In this document: piece by piece, positions 54,450-63,727 of the stretch
How the letters are laid out: each line of letters opens with the position of its first letter
Position numbering within the stretch: the first letter of the stretch is position 1
The notes under the pieces: generated by a model
What the model was told of the DNA's origin: nothing
What the model saw: the letters and a program-made list of their open reading frames with translations, nothing else
The model's database searches: none
NCBI RefSeq assembly: GCF_003075455.1
Contig: NZ_QDAE01000001.1
Location: 62,001 to 126,000, forward strand
DNA: 64,000 nucleotides
Direction of reading: 5' to 3'
Source of the DNA: Arthrobacter sp. Bz4
Lineage (GTDB): Bacteria > Actinomycetota > Actinomycetes > Actinomycetales > Micrococcaceae
Position numbers and translations under genes: made by a program

Positions 54450-55850
54450 CTAACCCGCCGGCTGGAGCGCAGTGCGCCCAGCGTATGCTCCCCGGTGGCC
54501 AGCCGCCCGATGCCGGTCCGGGAGGCGCGCTCCTTCGCCGAAAAACTTTTCCCGGAGGGTCCCGGACCGGTAATCGGACTGGGCCAGGCCCCGCTTTCGC
54601 AGTTCGGGCAGGACCCCCTCGATGAAGTCCTGATAGGAGCCGGGGATGGTCTGGTTGATGATGTTGATCCCGTCGATTCCCGCGTCCTGCCAGGATTCGA
54701 GCTGGTCGACGATCTGTTCAGGGGTACCAGCAATCTGCTGGTTGTACGCCCGGTAGCGCGCAACATCGGCGATCGTCGGATTCCCGCCAGGGACTGAGGC
54801 GAACAGGGCCTCAAGTACGCCGCGGGCGCCGTCGGTACGTACCTCCCCCAGAGTGGTGTCGAGGGGGAGCCCGCCGAGGTCAACCCCGATACCGCCGCCG
54901 ATGTGCGCCACGATCGTATCCAGGTCCAGGTAGTCGTCGAGCTCAGCCCGCTTTCGCGACACCTCGGCTTCGGTGGATCCGACCACAAAGGAGAGCCCGG
55001 CAAAGAATTTGATGTCCTCGTCGCGGCGACCCAGTTCGCGGGCAAGCGCGCGGACCGATGCTGTCGTCTTCCGGGCGTAGTCCACATTGGGTGCGAAGAG
55101 GAATGCTGCTTCAGCGTTGGCAGCGGCGAAGTGCTGTCCCCGTCCTGAGGAGCCGGCCTGGAACAGTAGCGGAGTGCGCTGCGGTGACGGAGCCACCAGG
55201 TGGGGGCCCTCCACCGAATAGCGGGCCCCGTGGTGATTGATCTTATGGACCTTCGACGGGTCGGCATGGCGGCCCGTCCGCTTGTCCTGGACGAGGGCGC
55301 CGTCGTCCCAGGAGCCCTCCCAGAGCTTGTAGCAGACCTCCAGGTACTCGTCGGCCCAGTCGTAGCGGCTGTCGTGTTCGACGAGCCCGTTGTGGCCGAA
55401 GTTCTTGAACGAATTTTCAAGCACGCTGGTGACAATGTTCCAGGCGACCCGCCCCTCGCTGAGATGGTCGAGGGTGGACAGTTGGCGGGCAAACTGGAAT
55501 GGATGAGACTGAACGACGGAGCTGGTCAGGGCCAAACCGAGATGTTCGGTTGTTGCCGCCAGCGCCGATTGCAGGACCAGCGGGTCGTTGGCGGGAACCT
55601 GGAGCCCGCGCTCGATGTGGGACGTCCAGCCGCCCCCATGGTTGCCGTACAGCCCGACGACGTCGGCAAGGAAGAGCGCATCGAATTTCGCTTCCTCCAG
55701 CGTTCGCGCCAGGTCTGTCCACAGCCGCAGGTCATTGAATCGGTGTTGTTGGGCTTCGGGGTGGCGCCACTGCCCGCCGAGGATGTGGCTTGTGGTGTTC
55801 ATCGCGAATGCGCTGAGGAGAAGACGTGGGCGTTCAGTGAAGACTGACAT
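54450..55850 (-). CDS. LLM-class flavin-dependent monooxygenase, NtaA/SnaA/DszA family
   Basis: A 466-aa FMNH2-dependent monooxygenase. Family features: LLLSAFAMNTTSHILGGQWR at the start, FDALFLADVVGLYGNHGGG, EGRVAWNIVTSVLENSFKNF, YDWADEYLEVCYKLWEGSWD and TPLLFQAGSSGRGQHFAA. Relatives open nitrilotriacetate, dibenzothiophene sulfone, S-(2-succino)cysteine or similar compounds and need a separate flavin reductase, which is not encoded nearby. Its ATG overlaps the stop of the acyl-CoA-dehydrogenase-like gene by one base. It is the last gene of the SAM-riboswitch operon, which favours an organosulfur substrate. It is convergent with the UvrA-like gene. Confidence 0.9.
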   Translation of the reverse strand: MSVFTERPRLLLSAFAMNTTSHILGGQWRHPEAQQHRFNDLRLWTDLARTLEEAKFDALFLADVVGLYGNHGGGWTSHIERGLQVPANDPLVLQSALAATTEHLGLALTSSVVQSHPFQFARQLSTLDHLSEGRVAWNIVTSVLENSFKNFGHNGLVEHDSRYDWADEYLEVCYKLWEGSWDDGALVQDKRTGRHADPSKVHKINHHGARYSVEGPHLVAPSPQRTPLLFQAGSSGRGQHFAAANAEAAFLFAPNVDYARKTTASVRALARELGRRDEDIKFFAGLSFVVGSTEAEVSRKRAELDDYLDLDTIVAHIGGGIGVDLGGLPLDTTLGEVRTDGARGVLEALFASVPGGNPTIADVARYRAYNQQIAGTPEQIVDQLESWQDAGIDGINIINQTIPGSYQDFIEGVLPELRKRGLAQSDYRSGTLREKFFGEGARLPDRHRAAGHRGAYAGRTALQPAG

Positions 55851-57165
55851 CAGGGGGTACCTCCGGTGGTGGATGAGGGGCGAGCGGTGGCGTCGCCGAT
55901 GCTGTTCAGGCCAGTGGGGGTGGTGCTGTTGATCAGATAGTCGCCGACTGAGCGCGCTTTGAATAGCGCCGGGTTGTGGGTGGCCACCGTCCTCGCGTTG
56001 CGCCAGTGGCGGTCCAGTGCCTTGTCCTTGCCGACTGCCGACGCCCCGGCGACGTCGAATAATTCGCTGGTTGCCGCCAGCACCAACGGGGGAACCGAGA
56101 CGTGAGCCTGGTCGACAGCCAGTTCGGCGCGGAGGAACGCTGCCTCGGGGGATAGTGCCAATGCCGGGTCGACGGCGGCGTCAAGGTCCCGGGCCGCCGC
56201 CGTCACGACGGCTTCGGCGGTGTACACCTTCGATGCCAGGACACCGACATGTTCCTGGATCTGGGGATCATCGCGGAACAGGCCGCCCGATCCCGTGTTG
56301 AAGTCCGGATCCGGGCTTGAACGAGGTTCACCGCGTCGCGGCGGGCAGCGCGGCCGATCCCGGCCAGCACCGCAAGGAGGAAGAGTTGAAAAAACGCTGG
56401 TTCGAGCGTACTTGTCACCTTCCGCTGCAGGATGTCCCCGGACTCGACCGGCACCCGGTCAAAGCGCGCGGTGCCGGTCCCCGTCAACGGCTGACCAAAA
56501 CCATCCCAGTCGTCCACGATCGTCACCCGCGGGTCGTCCGCCCTCACCAGCGCGTATTGTCTCCCTTCGAGCCCCTCAGTGCTCGCCATGACCACCACCC
56601 AGTCGGCGAAAATACTGCCGGTGGTGTAGAACTTTTCACCGGTGAGGAACCATTGCCCCTCCTCCTGGTGGAGCCTGGTCCGGGTTGTGCCGAGGGCGTT
56701 GCCCGAGCGTTCAGTGGCAGCGTTGCCGAAGATTTGGCCAGCAGCGATACGGGGGAACCAACGGTCCTGAAACTCTGCGGACTGCAGCGCGGCCGTTTCG
56801 ACAAACGAAAAATGGGAGCGCAACAGGTGGGAGACATTCGAGTCCGCCTCTGCCAGTTCAGTGACGAGCCGGAAGAGGTGTTCGTGGCTCACCGGATTGC
56901 CGCCGAACCGGGCGGGCACCCGAAGGGTGGTGAATCCTGCGTCCCTGAGCCACCCCACCTGGGCGAAGGGCAGGGTCCGGTCCGCTTCACGGGCGAGGGC
57001 GCCGTCGGCGATGCGCTGGAACACGGGCCGGAAACGCGCGGCGAGTTCCTCGTAACTGGCCTCTCCGGTGGCCGTACTGTGCTGGTGCCCGCTGTCCTGT
57101 GGTGCGTACGGCTGCGGTACGTCCGGCTGGGGTCCGCTGTGCTGGGCGCTGGTGGTGGTGGTCAT
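55850..57165 (-). pseudogene. Acyl-CoA-dehydrogenase-like monooxygenase (SfnB/DszC type), frameshifted
   Basis: Flavoprotein of the group that oxidises sulfur or nitrogen compounds with FMNH2. From ATG 57165, frame one gives FQRIADGALAREADRTLPF, FGRNPVS-like ARFGGNPVSHEHLFRLV, FGNAATERSGNALGTTRT and WFLTGEKFYTTGSIFADWV, up to NLVQARIRT near 56305. The expected FNTGSGGLFRDDPQIQEHV is in the next frame, which runs to 55850 (SKVYTAEAVVTAAARDL, ELFDVAGASAV). One T appears lost at 56301-56302. Whole length about 438 aa, normal for the family. It follows the transporter ATPase by 10 bases. Confidence 0.85.
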
Positions 57166-57175
57166 GGAGTTGTCC

Positions 57176-58894
57176 TTACGTGGTTGCGAGGGCGGCAATG
57201 CCGCTGCGAGTGGAGGCGTGGGCGCGAAGCCGGTGGCCCGGGTTGGAGTTGAGCAGCAGTTGGGTGTAATCACTGGTGGGATTGCCGAAGACCTCATTAG
57301 TGGGGCCCGTTTCGACGAGTTTCCCCCGGTGCATGACGCCAACGGCCGAAGAGATTCGTTCAACCACGTGAAGGTCATGGGAAATGAAGAGGTAAGTCAG
57401 TCCGAGTTCTTGTTGCAGGTCTGCCAGTAGGTCGAGGATCTGGGCCTGTGTCAGGACGTCGAGGGCTGACAGTGCCTCATCCAGCACCAAGGTGCGTGCC
57501 CCGAGCGCGAGCGCACGCGCAATTGCGACGCGTTGGCGCTGACCACCGGAGAGTTCAAGCGGACGTTTGTCCGCGAGGCTCGACGGGATATTCACCTGAT
57601 CCAGGAGTTCGGCCACTCGTTTGGCACGGGTTGTCCTGGAGCCGATCCGGTAGTTCCGGAGGGGCTCGCCGATGATGTCGCGGATAGGTAGGCGAGGATC
57701 GAGCGCGGAATCGGGGTTCTGATAAACCAGTTGCAGGTGTTTCCACGATTCTCTCTTCTGCTGTCGGGAGGCGGAGGTGACGTCCTGTCCGTGGATGAGG
57801 ATCTGTCCGGCTCCTGGATCGAGCAGGCGGAGAATCATGCGGGCAGTGGTCGATTTTCCGGATCCCGATTCTCCCACCAGGGCGAAGGTGGTGCCCTGGG
57901 CAACGCTGAAGGACACGCCGTCGACGGCCCGGTGCTGCTCGCCCGCCCTGTCAAAGTCCCGGATCAGGCCTCTTACTTCGATGGCCGCCGTTGCACCGGG
58001 CGCTGCGGTGGAGACGGCTCTGGCCACCGCAGGGCTGAGGTGGGGAGCGGCCTCCTCCAGCAGCCGGACCGTGTACTCGTTCGCCGGCGCCGCAAGAATG
58101 TCAGCCACCAGCCGGTCCTCGAGGATGCGGCCTTGCCGCATCACGACAATCCGCACGGCGTGGTCGGTGGCTACCGCCAGGTCGTGGGTCACAAAAATGA
58201 CTGCCGTGCCAAATTCGGTGGCCAGACGCTCAAAAACCTCGAGAATCTTCGCCTGGACGGTCACGTCAAGAGCCGATGTCGGTTCGTCAGCAATGAGCAG
58301 CTCCGGCCGGAGGCTGAAGGCAATCGCGATGAGAACACGCTGTTTCAGGCCCCCTGATAACTGGTGCGGGTACTGTTTCAGCCGTTCTTCAGGCCGGTCA
58401 ATTCCCACCAGATCGAGTAACCGGATGACCTCAGACCGGATCGACTCACGGGATTGCCGGGGACCGCCGGAGTGCAGCCGGAAGACCTCGGACAGCTGGG
58501 AACCGATCGTTTTGACGGGATCGAGCGAGGCTCCGGGGTCCTGCGGTACCAGTGAGATCCGTACCCCCCGAATTTTTTCCAGGTCCCTCTCTCGTGCGTT
58601 AGTGAGTGCGAGGTCTCCCAGGGAAATGGACCCCGCGGTCCGCTGCGCAGCTGCCGGGAGTAATCCGATGATCGATTTGGCCAGGGTGGATTTGCCCGAG
58701 CCTGATTCACCGACCAGTGCCACAATCTCACCGCGGCGGATGGTGAGGTCCACGCCGTCGACGGCGGTCTTCGCCTCAGTTCCGCGACCATATTCGATCC
58801 GCAGTCCCTGGATGGTCAGCAGTGATTCGTCGGTCCAGCGAGGAGTTTGTGCCATTTTTACGGCGGGGTTGGGTCGTGCGTGGGTAACGTCCAC
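57176..58894 (-). CDS. ABC transporter ATP-binding protein, fused DppD-DppF type
   Basis: A 572-aa protein with two complete peptide/nickel-type ATPase domains, so no second ATPase gene is needed. Domain 1: Walker A VGESGSGKSTLAKSI, SLVPQDPGASLDPVKT, signature LSGGLKQR, Walker B LLIADEPTSALD. Domain 2: Walker A VGESGSGKSTTARMI, LVYQNPDSALDPRLPI, signature LSGGQRQR, Walker B LVLDEALSALD (Ala replaces the usual Pro-Thr/Ser). GTG 58894 has TCAGGAGC just upstream; ATG 58855 is the alternative. It powers import of the ligand bound by the lipoprotein at 60829-62499. Confidence 0.93.
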   Translation of the reverse strand: MDVTHARPNPAVKMAQTPRWTDESLLTIQGLRIEYGRGTEAKTAVDGVDLTIRRGEIVALVGESGSGKSTLAKSIIGLLPAAAQRTAGSISLGDLALTNARERDLEKIRGVRISLVPQDPGASLDPVKTIGSQLSEVFRLHSGGPRQSRESIRSEVIRLLDLVGIDRPEERLKQYPHQLSGGLKQRVLIAIAFSLRPELLIADEPTSALDVTVQAKILEVFERLATEFGTAVIFVTHDLAVATDHAVRIVVMRQGRILEDRLVADILAAPANEYTVRLLEEAAPHLSPAVARAVSTAAPGATAAIEVRGLIRDFDRAGEQHRAVDGVSFSVAQGTTFALVGESGSGKSTTARMILRLLDPGAGQILIHGQDVTSASRQQKRESWKHLQLVYQNPDSALDPRLPIRDIIGEPLRNYRIGSRTTRAKRVAELLDQVNIPSSLADKRPLELSGGQRQRVAIARALALGARTLVLDEALSALDVLTQAQILDLLADLQQELGLTYLFISHDLHVVERISSAVGVMHRGKLVETGPTNEVFGNPTSDYTQLLLNSNPGHRLRAHASTRSGIAALATT

Positions 58895-58907: not shown

Positions 58908-59837
58908 CTAGATTCTGAAGGTTTTGAGTAGCTGTCGGCCCAGGGTCGCCAGTAAAAGGACCGTCAGGACAATGACGAGGCCAGGCAGCGTGGTCAACCA
59001 CCAGGCGGTCCCGAGATATTGCCGTCCTTCGGCGATCAGTAGGCCCCATTCCGGGGTGGGTGGTGGGGCGCCAAAGCCGAGGAAGCCCAACCCGGAGATG
59101 GCGAGGATTGCCGCACCCAGGTCAACCGCCAGCAACGCGAGGACGGGTCCGCTGGCATTCGGCAGGAGGTGGCGGGTAATGACTGACCAAAAAGTTCCAC
59201 CGTTGAGGAATGAAGCCTCGATGAAGTCAAGATTGCGTACCCTCAACACCTCTGATCGGACCACTCGGGCGAAGGAGGCGACCGAGGCGATGCCGATGCC
59301 GACGCCCAGCGAAATTGGCCCGGGGGAGAAGGCGGTGACTATGACGAGCGAGATGAGAAAGCCGGGCACGGCCAGCAGCACGTCCACTAGCCGCATCGCT
59401 GTGGTGTCGGCGGCCCGTCCCGCAGTTGCGGCAATGATCCCGACGAGCGTGCCCACCACCAGACCGATGAGGACCGCGAGTCCCGCGGTGAGGAGGGTCT
59501 GACGCGTACCGAACACCACCCGGGTGAAGACGTCCCGGCCGAGATGATCGGTGCCGAAAATGTGGTCAGCGTCGGGTGCACGAAAGTTGTCGCCCGGCAC
59601 CCCGTCGAGTGGGGAGAACGAGGTGAACAGGTCGGGAGCGAGCGCCCAGGCGGCGACGACGGTCAGGGGCGCCGCCGTCAACCAGAGGGACGGGCTACGA
59701 AGCGGTCCGCGCCGTCGTCGGGCTGACGGCACAGGAGCGGTCTCGGGCACCGCCGCCCCGAGGCCGGGACCGCCGTTCCTGCCTGGGCCTGGATCTGCAG
59801 TCAGTACTGGAGGGGGGAGATTATTGGTGGTTGGCAC
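58908..59837 (-). CDS. ABC transporter permease, DppC type
   Basis: A 309-aa inner-membrane permease. A Pro/Gly-rich N-terminal tail is followed by a helix (LTAAPLTVVAAWALAPDLF), HIFGTDHLGRDVFTRVVFG (the OppC/DppC signature) and five further helices with the ATPase-contact loop FIEASFLNGGTFWSVITRHL. The end GLLIAEGRQYLGTAWWLTTL with a last helix is usual. It pairs with the DppB-type permease directly upstream. It overlaps neither neighbour but spacing is tight (27 and 13 bases), consistent with one operon. Confidence 0.93.
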   Translation of the reverse strand: MPTTNNLPPPVLTADPGPGRNGGPGLGAAVPETAPVPSARRRRGPLRSPSLWLTAAPLTVVAAWALAPDLFTSFSPLDGVPGDNFRAPDADHIFGTDHLGRDVFTRVVFGTRQTLLTAGLAVLIGLVVGTLVGIIAATAGRAADTTAMRLVDVLLAVPGFLISLVIVTAFSPGPISLGVGIGIASVASFARVVRSEVLRVRNLDFIEASFLNGGTFWSVITRHLLPNASGPVLALLAVDLGAAILAISGLGFLGFGAPPPTPEWGLLIAEGRQYLGTAWWLTTLPGLVIVLTVLLLATLGRQLLKTFRI

Positions 59838-59864: not shown

Positions 59865-60823
59865 TCAAGCAGCAAGGGCCCGCGGGGCGCCATCTCGACT
59901 GCTGGTGAGGATGCGGGGATCAAGGAGCGGATATAGGAGGTCAACTGCCAGGTTGACCACCACAAAGATCGAAGCCGTCAGGAGCACCAGTCCCTGCACC
60001 AACGGCACATCCTGGGTGGTGACTGCCGTCAGGACCACTGACCCGAGACCCGAGCGGGCGAAGACGGTTTCAGTGATCACCGACCCGGCGAAAAGCGTTC
60101 CAACCGTGATGCCCATGATTGTCAGGGCGGGACCCGCAGCGTTCTTCAGCGCGTGGCGGAAGAAGATCCAGGACCGTGAGGCACCCTTCGCCCGGAGCAC
60201 ATCTATGAAGGGCTGGTCATAGACGTGGTTGATGCTCTTGAGCAGCACCTGGGCCAGGGGAGCGGACACGACAGTGGCCAGTACCAGTACCGGGACGGCG
60301 AGGGACAGAAAGGAACCATCGGGGAACAACGACATGACTCCCCAGCGGATGGAGAGCAGATCGAGCAGCACAAGACCGAGCCAGAATGCTGGAATGGCCG
60401 CGAACAGGGGAGGCACGTTCACTAAAACCCGACGGATCACCGTCGAGCGGGTGAGTGTCGCGGCGCCGACAAGGGAAACGGCGATGAGTACCGCAGTGAT
60501 GAAGGCGGCGCCGGCCAGGGCGACGGTCGACCCGGCGACTCCACTGATCCGGTCCCACACTGACTGTCCGGAAGCCAGCGAGTACCCGAAATCACCGGAG
60601 AAGAGCCCCACCAGCTGGTTCAGGTATTGCGTCAGCATGGCTGGTCATAGCCGTACTGACTCTTCATGGCGTCGATCGCTGATTGATCGACCGCTGAGTC
60701 GGCGGTCAGGAAAATTGTTACCGGATCGCTGGGCAGAAGCTGTACGGCGAGAAACACCGCAGTGTAGGCGAGCCACACCACCAACAGGGCCTGACCTATC
60801 CGTTGCAAAAGATAGCGGATCAT
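59865..60823 (-). pseudogene. ABC transporter permease, DppB type, frameshifted
   Basis: Frame one from ATG 60823 encodes the normal N-terminus (MIRYLLQRIGQALLVVWLAY, SDPVTIFLTADSAVDQSAID, SQYGYDQP) and then stops (TGC TGA) at 60632-60637. The next frame, from ATG 60638, continues exactly where the family continues (LTQYLNQLVGLFSGDFGYSL) through five helices to 59865, including ATPase-contact loop FIDVLRAKGASRSWIFFRHA. One base appears lost in CAGCCATG. The ATG overlapping the stop could allow re-initiation, giving a split permease, but loss of function or an assembly error is more likely. Confidence 0.85.
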
Positions 60824-60828
60824 GGACG

Positions 60829-62499
60829 CTACCCGCCGGTTTTCCAGGCACCCTGGAATACCGGGGCGGTGCCGGACGTGAATTCAATCTGGGTCCCACT
60901 GTGGGCACCGTAAACCTGGACCTCGTCCCAGAGCACCAGGGAGTAGGCCTTATCCACCACCAACGCATACTGTTCCTCGGCCAGCAGCTCATCGCGCTCT
61001 TCGAGTGAGGTTGCCGCACGCTCGGCCGCGAAGATCGCGTTGAGGTCTTCGTCGCTGGTGTGCGTCATGGTGTTGTTTTCCGGCTCGAAGATCGGGCCGA
61101 GACCGCCGTAGATGAACTGTCGGGTGCCGAAAAACTCCACCGCTGGGTCAGGCATTGCTGAGGCGAGAAAGGTGTTGTCGCCGGCGCGGTTGTTGAGCTT
61201 GACACCAATCTCACGCCACTGCTGTTCAATCAGCTCGAAGGCCGGTTTGATGACAACCGAATTGTTGGAACTAGTGACGGTCACCTCGAGTGCTATTCCG
61301 TCTTTGGCCCGGATGCCGTCGGCCCCGACTTTCCAGCCCGCCTCGTCGAGCAGCTGCCGTGCTTCCTCGGGCTGGTATTCGAGTTCTTCGGACAGGTCGG
61401 TGAAGCCGGGTGCCCGGTGGTTCAGGACCGAGGCAGCCAGTTCGTAGCTGTCGGACAGGACGGTGTCCTTGAGACTTTGCCGGTCAATACCAATCTGCAG
61501 GGCCCGGCGGACGTTCTCGTCGGCCAGCTTCCCGCTGCCGACCCGGACCGCGGCCATGTTCACTGTCAGGTCCACGCCCTTCGCCGGGAGAACCTGATTA
61601 CCGGTCGCAGCAAGGGTTTCCTCATCCACCGGCTGGAGGCCCCTCACCAGGTCGACCTGCCCCGACTGGACCGCCCCAGCACGATGGGCGACCTCCGGCA
61701 GGTATTTGACGACGACCTTGTCGAGGTACGCGTCACCCTGGTTGTCAACGGTTTCCGGCGCCCAGGCGTAGTCCGGGCGCTTGGCCAGTACTACTTCCTC
61801 ATCAGGCTTCTCGGACTCGAAGGTGAAGGGTCCGGACCCGGATATCTGGGAGATGGCTGATTGCCCTGCCGCATCCAGCTCAAGTGTTGCGGGGGACACC
61901 AACCCGGCGGTGACCGAGGTGGTGGCCCGCAGGAAGTTCGCGTTAGGGGAGGACAGCGTCACCAGCACCTGATCGGCACCGATCACCTCGGCCGACTCGT
62001 ACCCGGCGAAGTCCACGTTCGGTTGAATCTGGGCCGCCTCAATCCCAAAGCCCTGGGCGTCGAGGTTCAGTTTGACTGCCTCGGCGTCTACCGGGGTGCC
62101 ATCACTGAACGTCACATCGGGTCGAATGGTGAAGGTGAACTCGGTTGCGTCTGCGTTAGCGGAGAACTCGGAGGCTATCCAGGGGACAATCTCACCCTGG
62201 TCGGCGTCGAAATACGTCAGGCGGTCCAGGACGCTGTTGAGGACATTGGACTTTTCATAGAACCTCGCGGACTGGGTCTGCCAGTTATTGATGGGGGTCA
62301 CCTCGGCATATACCAGGGTGCCGCCCTCGACCGGCTGCCCACTGGCCACACTTTCACCCGGAGCGGTAGTGGCGGTCGAACCGCAGGCGGTGAGCGCCAC
62401 TGCCGTAAGGCCGATGAGCGCCGCTACCCGCAGGGACCGCCGGCGTGGACCGGGATTGGGCGGTAGGACGTTGTGGTGTGAGACGGTGCGGGAAATCAT
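60829..62499 (-). CDS. ABC transporter substrate-binding lipoprotein, family 5
   Basis: A 556-aa exported lipoprotein. A twin-Arg-like basic start (GPRRRSLRVAALIGLTAVAL) leads to the lipobox LTAC. The mature part has the family-5 pattern: GGTLVYAEVTPINNWQTQ, LNSVLDRLTYFDADQGEIVP, DVTFSDGTPVDAEAVKLN, YLPEVAHRAGAVQSGQVDLV, ENVRRALQIGIDRQSLKD and a long C-terminal lobe. Family members bind peptides, nickel or opines; with this operon and a SAM riboswitch upstream, a sulfur compound or peptide is likely. GAGAGGA precedes ATG 62499. It is the first gene of the leftward operon. Confidence 0.92.
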   Translation of the reverse strand: MISRTVSHHNVLPPNPGPRRRSLRVAALIGLTAVALTACGSTATTAPGESVASGQPVEGGTLVYAEVTPINNWQTQSARFYEKSNVLNSVLDRLTYFDADQGEIVPWIASEFSANADATEFTFTIRPDVTFSDGTPVDAEAVKLNLDAQGFGIEAAQIQPNVDFAGYESAEVIGADQVLVTLSSPNANFLRATTSVTAGLVSPATLELDAAGQSAISQISGSGPFTFESEKPDEEVVLAKRPDYAWAPETVDNQGDAYLDKVVVKYLPEVAHRAGAVQSGQVDLVRGLQPVDEETLAATGNQVLPAKGVDLTVNMAAVRVGSGKLADENVRRALQIGIDRQSLKDTVLSDSYELAASVLNHRAPGFTDLSEELEYQPEEARQLLDEAGWKVGADGIRAKDGIALEVTVTSSNNSVVIKPAFELIEQQWREIGVKLNNRAGDNTFLASAMPDPAVEFFGTRQFIYGGLGPIFEPENNTMTHTSDEDLNAIFAAERAATSLEERDELLAEEQYALVVDKAYSLVLWDEVQVYGAHSGTQIEFTSGTAPVFQGAWKTGG

Positions 62500-62598
62500 G
62501 TCGATCCTCTCAGTCGTGATCGAGGTGCCCTACCCACGCACGCTGAAGCATCTGACCGCCAGGAATGGGGTCGACACCAACGGGGGATAAAACTTTCT

Positions 62599-62681
62599 CC
62601 ATCGGTCCTGGCAGTAGCACCGGCCCCGAGGGGTGGTTGCTGCGGCTTCAACGAGCCAGGTCTCTCAGCCGCTCTGGATGG
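62599..62681 (-). promoter_or_regulatory. SAM riboswitch (S-box leader)
   Basis: On the reverse strand an 83-nt element closes with CCATC/GATGG (P1). P2 is GCGGCT (62672-62667) pairing with AGCCGC. Between them lie the kink-turn GAGAGA and the loop ACCTGG, which can pair as pseudoknot with CCAGG near the 3' end. GCAACC, a CCCC-TCG-GGGG hairpin and GGTGCTACTGCCAGGACCGA follow in the order of SAM-I riboswitches. It lies 100 bases before the substrate-binding protein gene, so the operon should be shut off when S-adenosylmethionine is plentiful. I could not identify the switching hairpin. Confidence 0.82.
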
Positions 62682-63190
62682 TTGTTCAGTCCGGGGGAGC
62701 GATACCCTGCGGACTACGGCGATCTAATCGCATAATGATGGGGCAATCAAGAAAGTCCTGATCTGTACGACTTCCGACGCAACATTCAGCATTGGCAGGC
62801 CGGTGCAGGTGGGTATACATTTCGGTATGAGAGAGATCAGCACGGAGTGGCGGGTGATCGATAACGTTGCGACGGCATGGTTCGACGCGCGTTCGCTGAC
62901 CGTCGAATCCTCGAATCCGTCTGGATGAGAATATTCTGGCAGCGCGTGCTCGACTGCGCGCCTGCTGACGACGGCGGTTTGGCGGATCCGTTACGGCTCG
63001 ACCCCGCGCTACGGATCAACGCGCTACGGATAAAGGCAAAGAGTTGATGATCGTAAGTAGTTCATAATCTTCACCGGTGGGTCTTTATCTCGCGTCAGGC
63101 TGGCGGTAAAGGGAGTTCCCGGATCCGCTGCTGAACCCTTCCCGGAAACGCCGATAATCTACATTATGTCAACTAACGGATATCTGGTGG
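62682..63190. other. 509 bp with no convincing gene
   Basis: Should contain the riboswitch operon promoter. A 33-codon frame from ATG 62827 has a start faintly like a pterin dehydratase segment (EWRVIDNVATAWFDARSL) but stops at once. The rest looks like decayed sequence. Confidence 0.5.
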
Positions 63191-63727
63191 TCAGAAACAC
63201 GAGTCTTTCGTCATGGTCATTTTGATTCGCGCGTCAGAGACGTTGGTGTCCGGCCACTGCTCAGAGCGCACCCCAATTCCAGATGCAGTTCCCTGGCGGA
63301 CAGCTGCGGCGATTGATACTGCGGTCACCACATTAACCTGCTCCCCTGGGCCGATGACGTAGCCCTCAGCCGGTTCGGCCCGGTCCAGTATGGCTTGAAC
63401 CTCTGGGTCCTTTGTTAACGTCGAGCTCACGCCGAGGGTAGTACCTGGGCCTGACTGCATCGGAATAATGTAGGCGTCCTCCACCACCATGTCCTTAGCA
63501 TCCAGCAGCTTCACTTCCGTGACGGTGACCGGCTGATCTCCGTTGTTGGTGATTACCTCACCGACGAGGGTTTTCCCCTCGCTTGGCGGCACATCCACAA
63601 AGCACATTTCGTCGGTGCCCCCATCAGTCAGCACGCTTGAGTATCCCGGGCTGACGGAGCAGCCGGCCCCTGCCATCAGGAGGGCAAGGGCGAGCAGGGT
63701 GGTCGCACTGTTTCGCTTCGCATGCAT
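63191..63727 (-). CDS. Hypothetical lipoprotein
   Basis: A 178-aa protein with a lipoprotein signal peptide (KRNSATTLLALALLMAGAGC; lipobox AGAGC at about residue 23). The mature part is a probable beta-sandwich: CFVDVPPSEGKTLVGEVITN, GDQPVTVTEVKLLDAKDMVV and GPGEQVNVVTAVSIAAAVRQ, similar in style to Ig-like or DUF4352-like surface domains. It ends with MTMTKDSCF, giving a possible disulfide with the first mature Cys after the lipid anchor region. No family can be named. It has its own region downstream of an unclear gene at the window edge. Confidence 0.75.
   Translation of the reverse strand: MHAKRNSATTLLALALLMAGAGCSVSPGYSSVLTDGGTDEMCFVDVPPSEGKTLVGEVITNNGDQPVTVTEVKLLDAKDMVVEDAYIIPMQSGPGTTLGVSSTLTKDPEVQAILDRAEPAEGYVIGPGEQVNVVTAVSIAAAVRQGTASGIGVRSEQWPDTNVSDARIKMTMTKDSCF

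Follow-up and report, generated by a model that had tools for sequence, protein, structure and literature searches.

A SAM-I riboswitch without P4 precedes a predicted organosulfur operon in Arthrobacter and related Micrococcaceae

What does a transporter import when its protein family points one way and the RNA in front of its genes points another? In Arthrobacter sp. Bz4, an operon for an ABC importer of a type that would suggest peptides or opines had been assigned to sulfur supply in an original prediction made from the sequence alone, on the strength of an S-box aptamer recognised upstream. We examined this locus within a window of 64,000 nucleotides (contig C1:62001-126000 of the 3.41 Mb genome); positions given below without a handle are those of the window. 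The original prediction was silent on three features described here: the location on the minus strand, the missing P4 helix of the aptamer, and frame splits in permease A and the SfnB-like gene.

Architecture and class of the aptamer

A cmscan search of the whole window matched the minus strand at 62684..62596 to RF00162 (SAM-I, S-box) with a score of 60.6 bits and an E-value of 1.4e-11, the gathering score being 44.4; the match spans the complete model from position 1 to 108. The covariance-model search proposed as the check on the predicted SAM riboswitch thus came out above threshold, and the prediction is borne out. This is the single riboswitch at gathering scores within the window, and its 89-nt RNA is a predicted SAM binder. 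SAM-I and SAM-IV belong to the same clan, and overlapping clan members were reduced to the best one, so RF00162 outscored SAM-IV at this site. Across the genome the element is the top of four RF00162 matches, three of them above the cut-off (150 of 340 first-look candidates scored). A genome search with SAM-IV (RF00634) at E up to 10 returned five matches, none at 62596-62684 (150 of 934 first-look candidates scored), and the SAM-I/IV variant model (RF01725) had no genome match at E up to 10, with all 95 candidates scored. Assignment of the element to SAM-IV or SAM-I/IV is therefore unsupported.

Every part expected from P1 to the pseudoknot was found, as had been claimed, and the limits first proposed, 62599-62681, run exactly from P1 to P1. 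All parts lie on the minus strand. Alignment and pair counts place the 5′ strand of P1 at 62677..62681 and its 3′ strand at 62599..62603. The RF00162 match, the alignment and the pair counts together define the hairpin of P2a, kink-turn loop and P2b (62642..62672), the 5′ side of the pseudoknot in the loop of that hairpin (62656-62660), and the P3 hairpin (62616..62641). The 3′ side of the pseudoknot, at 62607..62611, follows from the spacing measurement described below and from pair counts.

We aligned the window aptamer with 25 relatives, giving 26 aptamers of which 25 distinct rows were counted. In P1, P2a, P2b, P3 and the pseudoknot, 99.8% of the 600 cells are occupied by standard pairs; sliding the partners by 1-3 columns lowers this to 22.8-51.0%. 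Both partners have changed in three pairs: two belong to P2a, one of which has done so in 12 rows, and the third, changed in a single row (L061), to the pseudoknot. As the rows share kinship, these counts are not independent events. The covariation score lay above all 500 shuffles, and further pair types were no more numerous than in the shuffles (8 against a mean of 9.0). Among the 25 distinct rows, no pair in P1, P2b or P3 changed on both sides, and these helices are therefore conserved rather than tested by covariation.

P4 is absent from the window aptamer. Two bases replace 18 positions of the model, and the 3′ strand of P1 starts three bases after the 3′ side of the pseudoknot, which leaves no space for the helix. 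Measured from the GGUGC of P3 to the last eight model positions, the spacing in the window is 13 nt. We compared this value with 93 Micrococcaceae rows, comprising 59 from the loci described below, four from this genome and the 30 best family-search matches; these collections overlap, and some elements occur twice. The spacing was 12-14 nt in 90 of the 93 and exactly 13 nt in 86, with two unmeasured rows, one with a changed GGUGC and one without sequence, kept in the total. A SAM-I element at L023:1501-1611, whose 29-nt spacer could accommodate a P4, is the sole exception among the 91 measured Micrococcaceae rows. For other actinomycetes the spacing was 24-35 nt in 29 of the 30 best-scoring matches (one unmeasured, kept in the total), a selection that favours the canonical form; two shorter matches, G237 (94 nt) and G288 (97 nt), lie outside this measurement. 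Loss of P4 is the rule among the Micrococcaceae rows measured, the comparison group being the best-scoring matches of other actinomycetes.

The window aptamer shares with canonical SAM-I the helices P1, P2a, P2b and P3, the kink-turn loop, the pseudoknot and the conserved core, and it scores over the curated cut-off of RF00162. Canonical SAM-I has P4, whereas this element does not, and we class it as a SAM-I variant because the canonical P4 helix is missing. PMC6890682 describes SAM-IV as likewise lacking P4 and as carrying a P5 stem-loop and a second pseudoknot; judged from its sequence, the P3 loop of the window aptamer looks too short for such a second pseudoknot.

The operon and its relatives

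The end of the aptamer sits 96 nt upstream of an operon on the same (minus) strand, and profile matches bear out the gene set and order that had been read from the sequence. The first gene encodes an extracellular solute-binding protein of family 5 (60829..62499; PF00496, 222 bits) with a lipobox visible in its sequence, scoring below the cut-off of TIGR04028 (366 against 468.5 bits). It is followed by two BPD_transp_1 permeases (PF00528): permease A at 59865..60823, which lies in two frames near 60638 and was delimited by tblastn with the protein of a relative, and permease B at 58908..59837. A fused double ATPase of the peptide/nickel transporter type, with two ABC_tran stretches, occupies 57176..58894.

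Two flavoenzyme genes complete the operon. The first (55850..57165, in two frames near 56302) resembles SfnB, MsuC and DszC; its two pieces score 182 and 75 bits against TIGR04022, under the cut-off of 430.9, and for this reason we call the gene SfnB-like only. The intact protein of a relative (L036) is closest to the methanesulfinate monooxygenase 6u76 (135 bits) and to DszC-type enzymes. The second, at 54450..55850, encodes an FMN-dependent monooxygenase that belongs to the NtaA/DmoA subfamily TIGR03860 (498.3 bits, cut-off 279.7). On the other side of the riboswitch, a small gene with a lipoprotein-like start (63191-63727, minus strand) matches nothing in NCBIfam or Pfam at E 0.001.

We collected related loci by searching with the binding protein rather than with the riboswitch. 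Of the 28 found, one (L062, from Neoroseomonas, at 30% identity and without RF00162) was set aside, leaving 27 close loci from Arthrobacter and related Micrococcaceae. An RF00162 element lies upstream of the first operon gene in all 27, at or above the gathering score in 25 and just below it in the other two (L041, 40.7 bits; L058, 42.3 bits), both of which have a long P3. The 25 include L054, where the genes are reordered and the element precedes permease A. The 27 close loci share ancestry and do not represent 27 independent events. All six genes are present in 24 of the 27, in the same order in 23 and in another order in L054; the remaining three loci (L038, L048 and L061) are cut by contig ends. 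In 25 leaders, among them that of the window, 92-128 nt separate the end of the aptamer from the script-assigned start codon. Across the 28 loci there are 59 RF00162 matches at the gathering score, and among 197 Micrococcaceae genomes 162 have a match, over the cut-off in 146.

The close loci also keep sulfur-type company. An additional NtaA-type gene (NtaA2), mostly together with SfnB2, occurs in 20 of the 27 neighbourhoods, ssu-type genes in seven and metN/metI-like genes in four; these counts are lower bounds, as the loci differ in length, and a 28% MetN-like match in L036 was left out of the met count.

Further afield, 29 loci with distant homologues of the binding protein (L110-L138, about 34-41% identity) were found. 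None of the 20 that were scanned, over about 4.5 kb each, had an RF00162 match, and no Rfam match was found over 20 kb in six of the distant-homologue genomes. Five of these six have an NtaA-type gene (28-58% identity) beside the transporter and one has an SfnB-like gene there, and at locus L153 SfnB-like, NtaA-type and ssu-like genes are all near it. With flavoenzymes beside distant transporters that have no riboswitch, the link between transporter and flavoenzymes reaches beyond the riboswitch. At L125:3549-3667, in another actinomycete and among the 20 loci scanned, a strong SAM-IV element (105.4 bits) points away from the gene for the distant binding protein.

Other SAM elements in the genome

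The Arthrobacter genome has three other SAM-I elements. One precedes genes for SfnG (625.6 bits, cut-off 382.95) and a MetY-type enzyme (TIGR01326, over the cut-off). Another, with a long P3 and 40.6 bits, below the cut-off (L103:11384-11518), lies before an ssu-like importer consisting of an ATPase, an SsuA-family binding protein (over its cut-off) and a permease. The last is followed by a 172-aa reading frame and then by a sodium/solute-symporter-like gene (below the cut-off). Because this L103 element, L041 and L058 are all near misses, the Rfam cut-off may undercount the long-P3 form of SAM-I. A gene for acetate--CoA ligase (L103:6532-8499; TIGR02188, over the cut-off) separates the ssu-like genes from the SAM-I/SfnG unit.

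Four of the five SAM-IV matches exceed the RF00634 cut-off (L105:4117-4230, L106:8048-8161, L107:8810-8945 and L108:8103-8219), so two classes of SAM switch are present in one genome. The genes behind the SAM-IV elements are a cysteine-desulfurase-like gene (below the cut-off), an SfnB paralogue (271 bits, below the cut-off) that comes after a 212-aa frame, MetX (over the cut-off of one model), and MetQ-, MetN- and MetI-like genes (below the cut-offs).

Control, competing readings and sulfur supply

We consider it probable that plentiful SAM leads the SAM-I riboswitch to reduce expression of an operon for organosulfur scavenging, and that scarcity allows the importer and the two flavoenzymes to be made. 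When sulfur, and hence SAM, is scarce, the aptamer would be empty, the leader would refold and the operon would be expressed, most likely by ribosomes gaining access to the binding-protein gene, a translational route that we infer together with SAM binding and the OFF direction at plentiful SAM. The products would form an ABC importer for an organic sulfur compound, and the SfnB/MsuC/DszC-like and NtaA/DmoA-family flavin-dependent enzymes would then oxidise or desulfurise what has been imported. The reading stands on three observations: the aptamer, its conservation in front of the operon, and the sulfur-type gene company. It is weakened by the frame splits in two of the six genes, by folds with a forced P1 that run the contrary way (below), by the pair types that did not exceed shuffles, by the lack of RF00162 at the 20 scanned distant loci, and by the SfnB and TIGR04028 matches below the NCBI cut-offs.

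How the switch would act is the less settled part. The binding-protein gene has a Shine-Dalgarno sequence, GAGAGG, at 62506-62511. In folds that leave out the pseudoknot and the ligand, a forced P1 opened up the Shine-Dalgarno sequence in 17 of 25 leaders, among them that of the window; access fell, as expected if P1 hid the sequence, in seven and stayed the same in one. This counts against simple masking by P1. The unconstrained minimum-energy fold of the window leader suggests an anti-P1 hairpin at 62576..62606 (minus strand) that may take up the 3′ strand of P1. Most aligned leaders (18 of 25) carry CUCGG ahead of the Shine-Dalgarno region and CCGAG inside it. The window leader belongs to the other seven, and there a short CCUC/GAGG stem (62506..62525, minus strand), weakly suggested by the leader alignment, is what could form over the Shine-Dalgarno sequence. 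For SfnG and the ssu-like ATPase in the same genome, the first possible start lies no more than about 8 nt from the end of the aptamer, a spacing that would fit direct masking.

It is possible, though we give it the lesser weight, that control is instead exerted on transcription, by Rho or some unusual terminator, or else depends on a short upstream frame starting inside P1, with no masking of the Shine-Dalgarno sequence. The contrary effect of forcing P1 agrees with this, as does an ATG that each of the 25 leaders carries in the 3′ strand of P1. Against it, a simple scan found no intrinsic-terminator-like site in 62400-63190 (shuffles expect only 0.4), and the frame from the P1 ATG varies from 4 to over 200 codons and in 14 of 25 leaders stops 30 nt or more short of the start codon; the variable length and early end of this frame led us to reject it as a conserved switch. 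The operon may also be a relic in this strain, an intact riboswitch before decayed copies of permease A and the SfnB-like gene with no working importer, although we think this somewhat unlikely. Both genes are split over two frames in the assembly with similar proteins matching on either side of the breaks (81-92% identity to L036 and 70-87% to G145), and each is in one frame in the relatives L036 and L037. The other four operon genes are open, and contig C1 as a whole has 5 of 107 genes flagged as split in comparison with the syntenic relative G145 (two in the operon, three elsewhere), against 1 of 108 in the reverse comparison, making single-base sequence error a live alternative to decay. 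G145 served as this control in place of stretches of G079, which had only nine orthologues on contig C1. The splits may be single-base assembly errors or operon decay; in another relative, L039, it is permease B that lies in two frames.

Two further readings concern the substrate. Import of methionine, a methionine peptide or another SAM precursor, with the flavoenzymes incidental, would suit a transporter family that includes peptide importers and the presence of SAM switches before methionine-type importers, such as the SAM-IV element before this genome's own MetQNI-like genes. That separate set is at the same time an argument against this reading, as is the presence of both SfnB-like and NtaA-family genes in the operon at 24 of 27 loci; we regard it as improbable. 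More remote still is an importer of nickel, opines or a metal chelate working with an NTA/EDTA-type monooxygenase, the SAM switch marking something else. By sequence, the nearest solved structures to the binding protein are NikA-type (4oer, 103.9 bits), and the permeases and ATPase resemble the Nik/Cnt families in profile searches. The NtaA-family protein, in turn, is closest to hexachlorobenzene oxidative dehalogenase (6lr1, 473 bits), alkane monooxygenase (3b9n, 436) and dimethyl-sulfide monooxygenase (6ak1, 417), and scores far lower against the NTA (3sdo, 195) and EDTA (5dqp, 162) monooxygenases; the retention of the SAM element at every close locus also speaks against a nickel or chelate importer.

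The original assignment to sulfur supply is thus well supported, chiefly by comparison, as a reading of sequence. It depends on comparison more than on the riboswitch alone, because the element recurs at 27 of 27 loci, the partner genes are of sulfur type, and other SAM elements precede sulfur genes. That the transporter imports organosulfur compounds is suggested by its regulation and gene company.

The sulfate-starvation enzymes SfnG, MsuC, DszC/DszA and DmoA belong to the same flavoenzyme families as those of the operon and the genome. The GsiABCD glutathione importer, which has a role in sulfur supply, likewise combines a family 5 binding protein with a peptide-type ABC importer; the GsiB model matches the operon's binding protein weakly (74 bits, cut-off 594), and to our knowledge the GsiABCD operon has no flavoenzymes. 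In Pelagibacter, according to PMC5069961, SAM riboswitches control methionine genes, and genes for organosulfur transporters are not activated. SAM switches there serve part of the sulfur-limitation response, a likeness to the present case, whereas here a switch precedes the importer. To judge from reference titles in PMC13352529, the dimethyl sulfone genes of Pseudomonas putida are under the protein regulators CysB and SfnR; in contrast, riboswitches precede such genes here.

What is new is the form without P4 and the operon behind the switch; the riboswitch class itself has been described before. No paper in open-licence PMC contained both 'SAM riboswitch' and 'SfnB'. Among the matches listed there, with subscription journals and RegPrecise outside the scope, none joined a SAM riboswitch to SfnB, SfnG or ssu genes in Micrococcaceae, and none described this riboswitch-operon arrangement. 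The Actinobacteria in the RNA-regulon survey PMC3766115 are Corynebacteriaceae and Mycobacteriaceae, and its main text contains no word beginning Micrococc.

The finding links a transporter with a nickel/peptide family name to sulfur nutrition and supplies a set of SAM-switch-associated genes, from bacteria common in soil, that can be put to the test. The natural P4-less aptamer provides material on the purpose of P4 and on the relation between SAM-I and SAM-IV. In the broadest reading, which we hold to be evenly balanced, Micrococcaceae would run an organosulfur regulon (the SBP_5 importer with its SfnB-like and NtaA-type flavoenzymes, SfnG and the ssu-like importer) by sensing SAM on the mRNA, through a minimal P4-less SAM-I that would stand structurally between SAM-I and SAM-IV, with both classes side by side in one genome.
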